Assembly (NCBI GenBank): GCA_017460665.1
Contig: JAFUAO010000026.1
Span: 1-34,180, forward strand
Length of the DNA: 34,180 nucleotides
Direction of reading: 5' to 3'
Origin: Ruminococcus sp.
GTDB taxonomy: Bacteria; Bacillota; Clostridia; Oscillospirales; Ruminococcaceae
A program made the translations under genes and the position numbers. Positions 29,126 through 33,765 of this stretch are shown here, one piece after another; position 1 is the stretch's first letter; every line of letters begins with the position of its first letter. Below the pieces are notes generated by a model, which was not told the origin of the DNA, searched no databases, and saw nothing but the letters and a program-made list of their open reading frames with translations.

Positions 29126-31789
29126 TCATTCGCCGAGGAAAAGCTGCCTCATGGCGATCATGTCGAATACGTCGATCTTGCCGTCCTCGCACAGGTCTCC
29201 TGCCTTCCAGTCGGCAAGGTCGGAGGAGGGCTTTGCCAGCAGGAAGCTCTGCATGGCCACAAGGTCGGAGATATTGAAGGCCTTGTCAGCGTTCACATCG
29301 CCCCGGATCCGGCTCTCTGAGTCGTCTGGCTCCTCGCTGCCGGAGTAGGTGACTGCCGGCTCGTCTGCTGCGGCATTGGTGATCTGGATATAGTCAAGAG
29401 CTCCCTTGAAGCCCTCCCCGACCACGGCCTTGTCGTCCTGAGAGGCGCTGAGGATCTCCTGCATATCGATGGAGACCGACTTGCTGCCTGCCTGCTGGCC
29501 GTTGATCAGGAGAGCAGCCTGACCGCCCATGATCCTGACAGTCACCTTGCTCCACTGGCCCTTTTCCAGCGCCGGAGCAGTGATCGTTTCGGTGGTGGTC
29601 CCGTCGGTCAAGGTCAGCTCAGCGCTGCCGGATGCATTGCTGGGAGTGAAGGAGATATAGGCCTTGCTGTCGCCGAAGCGGAAGAGCTCCTGACCGGCGG
29701 CGCCGCCCTTCCACAGGGCGCCAAGGCTGATCTGTATATCCTTAGACTGGAGCAGGGAGGTATCCAGCAGCAGTCTGTCCTCATTGCCGTCAAAGCTGAG
29801 GACGCCCTTTGCGGAGGTTCGCTCGCTGGACCACTGAGCCCCTATCTGACGGGCATTCGTGGCGGTGCTGCTGTCCTTTGCCCAGTTCTCGGAGGCGGAG
29901 CTGAAGTCGTATGAGGCCACATAGCTATCTGTCAGCGAGTAGTGGCCGTAGTCGTCCAGCCAGCCGAAATTCACTCCGTCAGTAACGGTCTTGTCGTTGC
30001 AGTAGTCTCCGTCGAGGATAAGGCTCCCGGAGTAGGAGGCAGAGCCGTAGATGTAGGTCATGCCCTTGGCGACGGCGTTGTCGGAGAGCTTCACGGCCTC
30101 CGCAAGATAGGCCTTCTGCTGGACCTTTGCATTGCCGGAGACCGAGCAGGAATTGGTCACCACGGCGCTTCCGCTGATAACGGCATTGCCGCTGAGGGAG
30201 ACCGTGCCGAACTTCCAGCCGTTGTCGTAGATCATGCCTCCTCCGTCAACTACCGCATGGCCGCTGACGACCACGTTGTCCTGAGCCGTCACGCTGTTGG
30301 CGACGATAGCGTGGTCCTCCACACGGACGTTCCCGGAGAGCTTAGCGCTGCCCAGCACCATGGCGTCAGGCCCGACGTAAACTGAGTCCGCAACGCTGGC
30401 GGTGTCGGCCACCCAGCCTCCGCCGTTGGAGTGGATATGGCCTGCGTCCTTGGAATAGCCGCCGGACTGCTGGACCTGAGCGCCCTCCAGCTTCACCTGG
30501 TAGGGGTAGCGTCTGCGCTCGGCGCCGTCCTTGTAGCTGGAAACGTTGTCCTTGTGGAAGGCGTTGATCTTCACCAGCTCCTTCGGCATAGCGGAAACAG
30601 TGAGATAAGCCGAAACAGCGCCGTTTGCGGGAACTGTCACGCTCTGGCCGCTGCCGAAGAGGTCTGAGTAGGACTCATTGCCGTCTGCGTCAACGGTCAC
30701 GATGCAGGCCTGCCAAGCGGCGTTCTCGTCATCTGAGATCCCTTTCAGCTCCGCAGTCACTGTGCCTCCGGTGATCTCAAGGGGCACGATGTTGATCCCC
30801 GACTGCATGGGAGCCTCCTCCTGAGGCACCTGGAGCCAGCCGGTGCCGTTGTCCTGCAAAACGGTGTAGAACAAATTCCAGTAGAATGGCGACTGTGCCA
30901 GCTTTTTATCGAACTCCTCCTGATAGGCCTCCTGTGCGCCGAAGTCGAAGGTAGCCATGCGCTTTGCGTAGTGTCCGAAGACGGTCTGAGCGTCAGTGCC
31001 GAAGATCCTTGTGATCGTATCGAAGGGGTACTCGCCGGGCTGAGCCTCTGAGATGATCCGCTTTACAGAGTTTATGCCAAGTCCCGGCAAATTATCCGGA
31101 TCGTAGGAGATGTACACCAAAAACGGCCACACCTCATAGTAGTTCCGGCCGTGGGGGAGGGTAAGGCTCAGGTTGCGGATATAGGGCTCGAACCAGCAGG
31201 TCTTGGTGGAGCCGGTATAGTATTCGCTCCCAAGGTACATCTCACGGAACCAGTTGGCAAGGGGCTCCCACCAAGCGCCGGTGATGTCCTGGTCCACCCA
31301 GGCCTTCTGCTGCATAGTAACGACGTGGCCGAACTCATGGGAGATCGTCAGGTCGTCCAGCATGGCTTCGGGGCTGATGATCTCGATGCCGTAGCCGTCC
31401 TCAGCGCTCATGAAGGCCCAGCCGTCGGGGTACTGGTCAAGGCCGGTGTAGGTCAGATAGATGTTGGTCTTGTACTTCTGGGAGCTCCGCCCGTAGATGT
31501 CCACGTTCATGTTCTCCATGCCCAGATACTCGCCGTAGCAGTGCCAGAGCTTCTCGTAGTCCTCAAGGTTCCTTTTTAGGAACTGCTCGTTGACCCGGCC
31601 TGTGGTGTCGTTGTTGCCGTAGAAGATGACGAAGTGCTCTGACTCGACGTAGTTTGCGCTGGTGCAGTAGCCCCACTTGTCACGGATCTTGAACTCCTCC
31701 TCGGCGGCGTCTGCCTTCCTCGGCACGATCGAGAGCATCGAGGCTGCCATCGAAAGTGCGGTGAGGGACGCAGTCAGCTTGTGTTTCAT
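29126..31789 (-). CDS. Secreted dockerin protein with HExxH peptidase-like, hexapeptide beta-helix and LamG-like domains
   Basis: An 887-residue extracellular protein. Signal peptide (about 1-28), then a peptidase-like domain resembling Svx/AvrXca (DUF6055-like) proteins with H151-E-F-G-H155 and E176 in WWEPLANW as a gluzincin-style third ligand. After a linker of beta-type domains comes a stretch of imperfect hexapeptide repeats (about 455-600; VADSVYVGPDAMVLGSAKL) predicted to fold as a left-handed beta-helix. A LamG/concanavalin-like domain (about 610-815, VLSFDGNEDRLLLD) and a C-terminal dockerin (about 827-887, GDVNADKAFNISDLVAMQ and DGKIDVFDMIAMRQ) follow. AAAGGAGG precedes ATG 31789; the longer frame lacks a site. 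The Svx link is from memory of that family and is tentative; the domain order is seen directly. Confidence 0.85.
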   Translation of the reverse strand: MKHKLTASLTALSMAASMLSIVPRKADAAEEEFKIRDKWGYCTSANYVESEHFVIFYGNNDTTGRVNEQFLKRNLEDYEKLWHCYGEYLGMENMNVDIYGRSSQKYKTNIYLTYTGLDQYPDGWAFMSAEDGYGIEIISPEAMLDDLTISHEFGHVVTMQQKAWVDQDITGAWWEPLANWFREMYLGSEYYTGSTKTCWFEPYIRNLSLTLPHGRNYYEVWPFLVYISYDPDNLPGLGINSVKRIISEAQPGEYPFDTITRIFGTDAQTVFGHYAKRMATFDFGAQEAYQEEFDKKLAQSPFYWNLFYTVLQDNGTGWLQVPQEEAPMQSGINIVPLEITGGTVTAELKGISDDENAAWQACIVTVDADGNESYSDLFGSGQSVTVPANGAVSAYLTVSAMPKELVKINAFHKDNVSSYKDGAERRRYPYQVKLEGAQVQQSGGYSKDAGHIHSNGGGWVADTASVADSVYVGPDAMVLGSAKLSGNVRVEDHAIVANSVTAQDNVVVSGHAVVDGGGMIYDNGWKFGTVSLSGNAVISGSAVVTNSCSVSGNAKVQQKAYLAEAVKLSDNAVAKGMTYIYGSASYSGSLILDGDYCNDKTVTDGVNFGWLDDYGHYSLTDSYVASYDFSSASENWAKDSSTATNARQIGAQWSSERTSAKGVLSFDGNEDRLLLDTSLLQSKDIQISLGALWKGGAAGQELFRFGDSKAYISFTPSNASGSAELTLTDGTTTETITAPALEKGQWSKVTVRIMGGQAALLINGQQAGSKSVSIDMQEILSASQDDKAVVGEGFKGALDYIQITNAAADEPAVTYSGSEEPDDSESRIRGDVNADKAFNISDLVAMQSFLLAKPSSDLADWKAGDLCEDGKIDVFDMIAMRQLFLGE

Positions 31790-31854
31790 ACTGATTCCTC
31801 CTTTATTCCCGGTATTGTTATTTTTGCCCAAAAAACAACAATTTGTATAAAATA

Positions 31855-31966: not shown

Positions 31967-32002
31967 CAAAAAAGCCCGTCCGGGCAGGTGCTCGGACGGG
32001 CT
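31967..32002 (-). terminator. Terminator of the expansin/micro-ORF transcript
   Basis: AGCCCGTCCG (32002-31993 read on minus), loop of 10, CGGACGGGCT (31982-31973), then TTTTTGCC. It lies five bases past the stop of the 37-codon ORF. Confidence 0.9.
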
Positions 32003-32007
32003 GTGTC

Positions 32008-32121
32008 TTACTTTATGGGAAGACCGGTCTCGCTGTCTATCTCGGGGCCGGAGGTAACTATGATGTCCTCGGCTGAAAAGGCGATGATCTCCATCTCCGG
32101 AGATGTATAGAGCTCTTTCAT
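32008..32121 (-). CDS. 37-residue micro-ORF downstream of the expansin gene
   Basis: A 38-codon frame with a strong TAAGGAGGAAAC ribosome site before ATG 32121, starting 12 bases after the expansin stop and ending just before the terminator, so it has every mark of a translated second cistron. The peptide has no signal sequence or membrane segment. Its N-terminal half is SPEMEIIAFSAEDI followed by IVTSGPE; the rest is short, acidic and ends in GLPIK. From memory, short clostridial ORFs with a pattern like SPE-x-E-I-x-x-F-x-x-ED-[VI]-[IV]-T-[TS]-SG are common and unannotated; I cannot verify this here. The constant-leader plus variable-tail look would suit a precursor or signalling peptide, but no function is claimed. 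Confidence 0.8.
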   Translation of the reverse strand: MKELYTSPEMEIIAFSAEDIIVTSGPEIDSETGLPIK

Positions 32122-32133
32122 TGCGTTTCCTCC

Positions 32134-33765
32134 TTACTTTGTGAACTGGACAGTGCCGGCAACGGTGTATGCGTCTCCGGCTGACTCCGGGAGCTTGAGG
32201 TCTATGTCCTCCTCGACGATCGACTCGCCGTAAATATCGGTGATCCTCAGAGTGGCCTTGCCGCTGGTAACAGCGCCTTCGGGGAAGTGGAAGTAGTTAT
32301 AGTCGCTCATACGGGTCAGTTCCTCGAAGTCTCCGCTGGAGGTCTTGTACTCCAGCTTAGTGATCGGATAGCGGTGGTTCCTGACCTGGATCTCGCACCA
32401 GGATTTGGAGGAACCATTCTTGATCTTATAGCTGATGTTCTCAGTGTCTGCTGAGGGAAGAGGCAGGATATGCCATTCTATCGGGATCTTTCCGCTGACG
32501 AAGCTCTCGTCCTGAGTGAATCTAGTGATAAGTATATCCACATCGCCGGACTCCATATTGTTTGCACCGTCCACATTGGTAACGAGAACATATGCTGTTT
32601 TTCCGCTTTCGTTTGTCAGCTCCAGATAGGCGCCGGCTAATTCTGCGCCGTTGTAGTCCGCCACGCTGAGGGCGCAGTTCTCATAGCCGTATTCCTTTGC
32701 GTAGTCGTCAAGAAGTGCAGCTCCGCCCTCAGGACCGTCGTAATCGGGCGGATACCATGTGGCATATCCCGAGTGTGTCACATCGGACATCCACTTCTCA
32801 TCGGACGAAGGCGAGGGAGCGTTCTTGGCCTCAGTGCCGTAAGCGTAGAGGGCCTTGCACACGTCCACCAGCTTGCTGTCGCTGTCCTCCAGAGCCATAG
32901 CAAGGTACTGTGCAGCGCTGAACTTTGCGGAGATACTGCCGTTTGTCAGCTCATAGCTCTCGTCCAGCTTAGATGCCGGAACGTCTATGCCGATCTGGAG
33001 GTACTTCGTGCCGTTAGCCTGTACATCGGCCGAGGATCCTCCGAATGTGAAGTCCGAGAGGAAGCTCTTGGCATCGGTCATGGAAGAGCCCTCAGCCAGC
33101 TCAAAGTAAAGGGTGAGCCGGAGCTTGCTCTTCAAAGAAAGGTTCATTCCGTAGTAGCTCACAGGCGAGCCGGAGAGCGCACTGTTGAGGTCGTCCTTGG
33201 CGACAGCATCTGCGCTGATAGTCACGCTGCTGTAGTCTGCGCCGGTGATCCCGTCGCTGGGCGAGCCCTTTGCGTCAACGCCGAAGTACTCCTGAGCGGC
33301 GCCGCCGTACATGAGCATGGACTTGGCAAGAGGCTTGACATCGTCCATATCCGAGCCGCCGCTTACGATCTCGTTGAGATAATCGCAGACAGAAACGCTC
33401 TTTTTGAGCACCTCATCGCTGCCCTTTTTGATGACAACGGTGTGCTTCTTCAGCATATCCATTGCATTTTCAGCGGCCTCGATGTAGTCGCCGCTCTCGG
33501 ACTGTGTCACTGTTGCAGGAGCGTCGTCGAGGGTGAAGGTGTAGTCGCTGAGGCTGCCGGGAACGCTCACATAGAAGAGAATACCGATCTCGGAGCCGCC
33601 TGCAAGGAGGCTCATGCTCAGTGAGGGCGAAGTTACGCTCTGTGATGAGCCGGTACCGCCTGCCGCAAATATCACGGGCATGGCGACGCTTGCGGAGGAG
33701 CAGGCCATTACAGCCGCTGCTGCTGCCGCAGCGATTTTTTTAGTCAGATCAAATCTATTATGCAT
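32134..33765 (-). CDS. Bacterial expansin (EXLX1-like) with large N-terminal extension
   Basis: A 543-residue secreted protein. Signal peptide (about 1-35); an unnamed module (about 45-314) with two similar motifs, SMLMYGGAAQEYF and ALYAYGTEAKN; then a two-domain expansin (about 325-543). The C-terminal half tracks Bacillus subtilis EXLX1 block by block: GYATW, YNGAELAGAYLEL, GKTAYVLVTN, IPIEWHILP, IQVRNHRYPITKLEY, TDIYG, KLPES, AYTVAGTVQF. D410 sits where EXLX1 has its essential Asp82. Of the cellulose-binding aromatics, the second Trp (W456) and the Tyr (Y489) are kept, but the first Trp is S455. Expansins loosen cellulose-matrix contacts without hydrolysis. No dockerin is present, so it is probably secreted free or bound via the N-terminal module. 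GGGGAGG precedes ATG 33765. Confidence 0.9.
   Translation of the reverse strand: MHNRFDLTKKIAAAAAAAVMACSSASVAMPVIFAAGGTGSSQSVTSPSLSMSLLAGGSEIGILFYVSVPGSLSDYTFTLDDAPATVTQSESGDYIEAAENAMDMLKKHTVVIKKGSDEVLKKSVSVCDYLNEIVSGGSDMDDVKPLAKSMLMYGGAAQEYFGVDAKGSPSDGITGADYSSVTISADAVAKDDLNSALSGSPVSYYGMNLSLKSKLRLTLYFELAEGSSMTDAKSFLSDFTFGGSSADVQANGTKYLQIGIDVPASKLDESYELTNGSISAKFSAAQYLAMALEDSDSKLVDVCKALYAYGTEAKNAPSPSSDEKWMSDVTHSGYATWYPPDYDGPEGGAALLDDYAKEYGYENCALSVADYNGAELAGAYLELTNESGKTAYVLVTNVDGANNMESGDVDILITRFTQDESFVSGKIPIEWHILPLPSADTENISYKIKNGSSKSWCEIQVRNHRYPITKLEYKTSSGDFEELTRMSDYNYFHFPEGAVTSGKATLRITDIYGESIVEEDIDLKLPESAGDAYTVAGTVQFTK

Follow-up and report, generated by a model that had tools for sequence, protein, structure and literature searches.

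The 37-codon gene described here (32008..32121, stop included, minus strand) lies on a 34,180-nucleotide contig of Ruminococcus sp. (JAFUAO010000026.1), below called the window; its genome is labelled G000, and other G, L and C codes are labels of the genomes, loci and contigs compared. The gene probably encodes an orphan precursor resembling LppA, the substrate of the linear polyphosphorylated peptide (LPP) enzymes, that is modified in trans and whose tail works with a partner outside the cell. The new part is the pairing of LPP-like precursors with secreted proteins that share a tandem unnamed domain, in the window an expansin. The assignment is to be read as LPP-like, not as that of a proven LPP member: the precursor reading is well supported, and the product and its role are what we infer.

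The open reading frame (ORF) is translated as MKELYTSPEMEIIAFSAEDIIVTSGPEIDSETGLPIK (37 residues, minus strand). Its constant front, residues 1-24 (MKELYTSPEMEIIAFSAEDIIVTS; 32050..32121, minus strand), contains the YxxP motif of leaders that bind the recognition element (RRE) of ribosomally synthesized and post-translationally modified peptides (RiPPs), and ends with a near-invariant Ser24. The variable tail, residues 25-37 (GPEIDSETGLPIK; 32011..32049, minus strand), has the D..GLP[IV]-type ending common to eight expansin-linked copies. The ribosome-binding site AAGGAGG (32129..32135, minus strand), as read in the sequence, overlaps the TAA stop codon of the expansin gene (32136-32134), and 12 nt separate this stop from the ATG. 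An intrinsic terminator (31973..32002, minus strand) begins 5 nt past the peptide stop; it combines a GC-rich hairpin of 10 bp with a trailing TTTTTT and has a folding energy of -23.9 kcal/mol (z -5.4 against shuffled sequences). A simple terminator scan of the window did not report this hairpin, probably because the loops in the scan were restricted to 3-8 bases. Thus the ribosome site, the spacing and the terminator, from which the initial annotation had argued that the micro-ORF is translated, were all confirmed. The gene layout suggests that the expansin and peptide genes form one transcription unit.

Of 149 genomes searched, 69, the window genome included, match the peptide at E<=10; they represent 16 of 45 genera. 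The best match outside the window has E 7e-13, the weakest have E 1-2, and a few lie above 0.1. One genome, G048, has 14 matches together with 3 kinases; the window genome, according to searches of its own sequence, has a single copy. A profile search of the fetched loci yielded 119 matches in total, corresponding to 110 distinct places. With later-found divergent copies added, the set comprises 120 distinct peptides, of which 118 allowed a division into front and tail. The front is nearly constant, about 24 residues long, with the consensus MKEKYTAPEMEIIEFESEDVITTS, and the residue immediately preceding the tail is serine in 112 and threonine in six of the 118. The tails are acidic and proline-rich (median length 12 residues, median net charge -2, positive charge in two), and in several members they are as short as 5-7 residues. 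The initial annotation had suggested that a constant front with a variable tail would mark a family, and this is the pattern observed. The usual front is followed by a tail of about 95 residues in Kandleria vitulina DSM 20405 (L212:4495). Four loci (L075, L094, L095, L235) contain two same-strand peptide genes within about 4 kb, with differing tails; in L094 each of the two follows its own domain protein, and in L095 the second follows a lipoprotein gene.

Scans against Pfam, NCBIfam and PHROGs produced no model for the family, only single weak matches; lasso_cyano matched weakly (E 0.12) one of 25 members scanned. In phylum-wide sampling the peptide profile matched at E<=0.1 in 9 of 398 genomes, the window genome included; apart from that of the window genome, most are probably chance, short matches within long frames, and those in G107 and G527 are convincing. 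A literature search with the exact motif returned no papers, and at the level of search results no earlier account of the family or of its pairing with secreted proteins was found. The accessible part of PMC12282076 has nothing further on the family, and the terms sought are absent from PMC7470986 and PMC12710340.

Peptide genes tend to follow genes of secreted proteins. At 106 distinct peptide places with at least 400 nt of upstream sequence, a same-strand ORF ends within 100 nt upstream in 85 cases and within 60 nt in 79 (median distance 18 nt); the other 21 places have no such ORF. Among the 85 upstream ORFs, 71 encode at least 300 amino acids, and, according to a simple rule, 60 of these 71 begin with a signal-peptide-like sequence. 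An unnamed domain of about 140 amino acids occurs in 57 of the 76 upstream proteins of at least 200 amino acids, and 55 of these 57 have two copies in tandem. It had no Pfam match in scans of the partner proteins and no match in PDB better than E 0.095. The domain is present in 41 of the 149 genomes, each of which also matches the peptide. The proteins that carry it differ in their other parts: in the window protein the domain pair precedes the expansin module, and in other examples scanned it comes after leucine-rich/DUF285 repeats, beta-helix repeats or a transglutaminase core. The initial annotation had suggested precursor-type peptides linked to extracellular plant-wall proteins. The precursor type and the extracellular partners are borne out by the family pattern and the upstream genes; as to the plant wall, the common feature is the tandem domain, and expansin is only one type of partner.

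The partner gene in the window (32134..33765, minus strand) encodes a tandem-domain expansin of 543 amino acids whose start, inspected by eye, resembles a signal peptide. Two copies of the unnamed domain, at residues 43-161 (33283..33639, minus strand; E 7e-20) and 180-315 (32821..33228, minus strand; E 7e-27), precede the EXLX1 expansin module at residues 333-541 (32143..32769, minus strand; NF041144, 147.9 bits at a cut-off of 100). The expansin model has matches in 72 of the 149 genomes. Eight of the matching expansins, long or truncated by contig ends, bear the domain (seven with the full pair, and G005 with only the last ~22 domain residues at a contig end), and in all eight a peptide gene lies 12-36 nt downstream. 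The pooled peptides of these eight loci have proportions of synonymous and nonsynonymous differences (pS and pN) of 0.75 and 0.28, rough values, as synonymous sites are near saturation; thus conservation beside the same expansin, whose absence would have refuted the initial reading, was observed together with purifying selection. The frames of the remaining expansins are about 300 amino acids long. Twelve of these ordinary loci, each with at least 327 nt of downstream sequence, were fetched, and none has either the domain or the peptide. Hence the peptide is not specific to expansins; most of its partners are other proteins. The window genome also has a second, ordinary expansin (G000:C16:11186-11770, plus strand, 318-amino-acid frame), and the peptide searches gave no match on that contig.

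The tails diverge together with the domains. In a partial Mantel comparison of 50 non-redundant peptide-partner pairs, tail distance correlated with domain distance when the leader was controlled for (partial r 0.45, reached by 0 of 2000 permutations), and the corresponding value for the leader, with the tail controlled for, was 0.15 (17 of 2000). Removal of the expansin group left a tail value of 0.43 (45 pairs, calculated without permutations). Such a correlation hints at co-evolution of tail and domain and does not prove it, because operon co-descent explains part of the signal and the conserved leader carries less of it.

The candidate modification system was recognized by comparison with LPPs (Popov et al., May 2026; PMC13381572, to the accessible parts of which the statements on LPPs here are limited). 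In that system LppK, LppB, LppS, LppD and LppN act on LppA. The RRE binds the precursor through YxxP, several phosphates are placed on core Ser3, and SipW-like LppS cleaves LppA in an RRE-dependent manner; LppN was inactive in the host used. In the LppB-LppA crystal an Asn and an Asp of the RRE fix the leader Pro and Tyr. The authors state that the biological role of LPPs is unknown.

Several members of the peptide family belong to a cassette that encodes, in a conserved though not fixed order, the peptide, a small lipoprotein, an HprK-like kinase, a PqqD protein, a signal-peptidase-like protein, an ABC (ATP-binding cassette) exporter and a nucleotidyltransferase, and peptide copies beside such cassettes occur in several families. 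Family scans of one cassette identified the PqqD protein (PF05402, 7.7e-14), the nucleotidyltransferase (PF14907, 2.2e-46) and the ABC exporter; its kinase and peptidase gave only sub-threshold matches, to HprK-type and signal-peptidase-I models respectively. A kinase-alignment scan of named genomes yielded 533 confirmed candidates. Around the best 80 of these, many on short contigs, PqqD and peptidase genes occur within 5 kb of the kinase at 58 loci, all four other enzymes at 34, the peptide at 33, and a lipoprotein with an LPxxP ending at 16. The residues of the candidate RRE equivalent to LppB N33 and D70, by our own mapping, are conserved in 88 of 88 and 82 of 88 sequences, and the catalytic Ser, His and Asp are each present in 80 of 80 distinct peptidases; the copy in the window genome was read as well.

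The lipoproteins beside the kinase are Ser/Thr/Glu-rich and end in IELPxxP, as does that of the window genome (G000:C92 = L131:10532-10996, minus strand). A few peptide tails have a similar ending (L091, L223). One cassette is in a contig deposited as Alistipes senegalensis (L151, JAMPEF010000063.1); its kinase is 100% identical to that of G079:C85, the two contigs are equal in length (11025), and G079 belongs to the genus of the window. This deposit may be mislabelled or contaminated.

In the window genome none of these genes is adjacent to the peptide gene. The kinase, peptidase, ABC exporter and lipoprotein genes are on C92, PqqD on C21 and the nucleotidyltransferase on C55, so that peptide and enzymes are spread over four contigs. 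The enzymes being on three other contigs, any processing of the window peptide would therefore occur in trans. As to modifying enzymes, the initial remark that none is close by is correct for the immediate surroundings; it is misleading for the genome, which has a full LPP-type set. Over the 149 genomes, peptide and kinase are both present in 53, the peptide alone in 16, the kinase alone in seven and neither in 73 (Fisher 4e-18). For peptide and PqqD the respective counts are 53, 16, 4 and 76. These counts ignore phylogeny and include weak peptide matches, and some of the assemblies are incomplete, down to 64%.

In the preferred scheme, the YxxP segment of the leader would bind the stand-alone PqqD/RRE protein of the genome, which would present the peptide to the HprK-like kinase, with Ser24 as the likeliest target. 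The same RRE would pass the peptide on to the soluble SipW-like peptidase for removal of the leader and to the ABC exporter, perhaps also to the nucleotidyltransferase, with all these proteins supplied from other loci. The released tail would then work extracellularly with the co-translated secreted tandem-domain partner, here the expansin. Counted from the tyrosine, Ser24 (Y+19) is the best counterpart of the phosphorylated serine of LppA (Y+18). Signal peptidases follow the -3/-1 rule, and a cut after Ser24 would fit it; the LppA alignment makes Ser24 the phosphorylated core position 3, with the cut before it. With the LPP consensus YxxPxVLxHQxIxFETxxS the agreement is partial, covering the tyrosine, the proline, a hydrophobic residue at Y+5 and, displaced by one position, the terminal serine.

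Several observations weigh against this scheme. The L, HQ and FET of the LPP consensus are absent, the serine is at Y+19 instead of Y+18, and of 106 distinct peptides in which a tyrosine occurs early, 18 lack proline at Y+3. The RRE profile is nearer to the lasso RREs TfuB1 (5e-5) and TbiB1 (3e-4) than to LppB (9x8z, E 0.0028). No other gene of the cassette adjoins PqqD in the window genome. The 16 peptide-bearing genomes without the kinase include the closest expansin relative, G005 (90% complete); several of the 16 are fragmentary or have a weak peptide match. Finally, domains occur without peptides. Forty domain places without a neighbouring peptide among the matches listed were chosen by eye. 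Five could not be used, as the frame or contig ends there (L255, L257, L258, L261, L277). The other places gave 11 clear divergent peptides, two marginal ones (L269, L275), three cases in which a lipoprotein start follows (L242, L243, L259) and 19 without a recognised peptide. Thus 13 of 35 testable places have a divergent or marginal peptide and 22 have none, so domain and peptide do not pair strictly one to one.

One can speculate, with some reserve, that every secreted tandem-domain protein comes with a tag peptide of its own, which, once the shared LPP machine has added phosphate (and possibly a glycan) at the boundary serine and exported it, docks by its variable tail into the tandem domain of the partner, as a device for surface display or retention. 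Such a device might, just conceivably, be used like the cohesin-dockerin pair and retain on the cell surface the expansins and the leucine-rich-repeat and transglutaminase proteins. Equally tentatively, the cassette lipoprotein, which in some cases shares the ...ELPxxP ending of the tail, could be the membrane-bound counterpart.

An unprocessed intracellular small protein, for instance a regulator binding the RRE or the mRNA or nascent chain of the partner, is unlikely. It would account for the lack of a signal peptide, for a front more conserved than the tail and for the genomes with peptide and no kinase. However, members of the family are located in exporter/peptidase cassettes, the partner's domains are tracked by the tail more than by the front, and the predominance of serine at the boundary fits processing or phosphorylation. 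A linear pheromone, an exported tail sensed by a receptor and reporting deployment of the partner, is quite improbable, and it is compatible with the preferred scheme. The short, acidic, proline-rich tails agree with it, as does the ending shared by some tails and the C-terminus of cassette-type lipoproteins (IELPLVPLR in both at L091). Beside one cassette, two divergent genes encode what by eye are a response regulator and a protein resembling a histidine kinase (L046:8564-10686). Pairing with a structural domain, however, suggests a physical rather than a regulatory role.

A lasso precursor, with the same YxxP leader and a tail folded into a threaded macrolactam, is very improbable. The leader motif and PqqD protein do resemble those of lasso B1 systems, and the lasso_cyano match points the same way. 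However, PF13471 (the B2 leader peptidase) is not matched in the window genome (9 of the 149 genomes match, seven above the cut-off; the cassettes themselves were not scanned for B2 or cyclase), and the shortest tails could not form both a ring and a threaded tail, the 13-residue tail of the window peptide alone not being decisive. On these two grounds the lasso reading was dismissed. Lasso cyclases are asparagine-synthetase-like, and this broad family also covers housekeeping enzymes. That the ORF is spurious or a decayed remnant, as its shortness, single copy and lack of a Pfam or NCBIfam model might suggest, has a negligible chance and is refuted by conservation in all eight domain-bearing expansin loci, with pN well below pS, and by its ribosome-binding site and terminator.

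Beyond the terminator, a perfect consensus promoter, TTGACA-17-TATAAT (31883-31855), precedes the next same-strand gene (29126-31831, minus strand). The product of this gene looks secreted; its domains are DUF6055 (5e-46), a laminin-G-like one and dockerin type I, and Svx/AvrXca is matched below threshold.

These data describe LPP-like precursors that are numerous and scattered in Ruminococcus genomes and tied in operons to secreted proteins sharing an unnamed double domain, among them the plant-wall-loosening expansins of fibre degraders. The pairing offers a handle on the role of LPPs, as one can ask directly whether the tail is a ligand of the domain and whether modification makes a difference. 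If the display and docking proposal were true, it would be the first biological role for LPPs. RiPP-type precursors can sit far from their likely enzymes, and cluster-based mining would miss such cases. Trans-acting precursor fleets are exemplified by prochlorosins, where one machine serves many precursors scattered over the genome. The organization is alike here and the chemistry is different; prochlorosin precursors are not known to come each with a secreted partner. According to a recent report (PMC13289728, accessible part), RRE-containing clusters are numerous in rumen isolates; they may include the present ones.

Phosphorylation and hexose attachment are described for relatives of lasso peptides in the accessible parts of PMC8498205 and PMC7533575. 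Phosphorylated lasso peptides of the paeninodin/pseudomycoidin type (PMC8498205) share with the present system the kinase, the nucleotidyltransferase, a discrete RRE, an ABC transporter and a YxxP/WxxP leader. They differ from it in that here the peptidase is SipW-like, the window genome has no PF13471 match and the tails are far too short. The closest likeness is to LPPs. Both systems comprise the same five types of protein, an HprK-like kinase, a discrete RRE, a SipW-like leader peptidase, an MsbA-like exporter and a nucleotidyltransferase. In both, the precursor has a conserved YxxP front and a variable C-terminus, no cyclase is needed, and the catalytic and leader-binding residues are retained. 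The accessible main text of PMC13381572 contains none of the terms Ruminococcus, Clostridi-, Lachnospir-, orphan, secreted or lipoprotein. The family described here occurs in Ruminococcus and other Clostridia. It differs from LPPs in that a genome can have as many as 14 peptide matches, many of them distant from any cassette, in a precursor that in the window genome is unlinked from the enzymes with which it is clustered in relatives, and in its pairing with secreted tandem-domain proteins.
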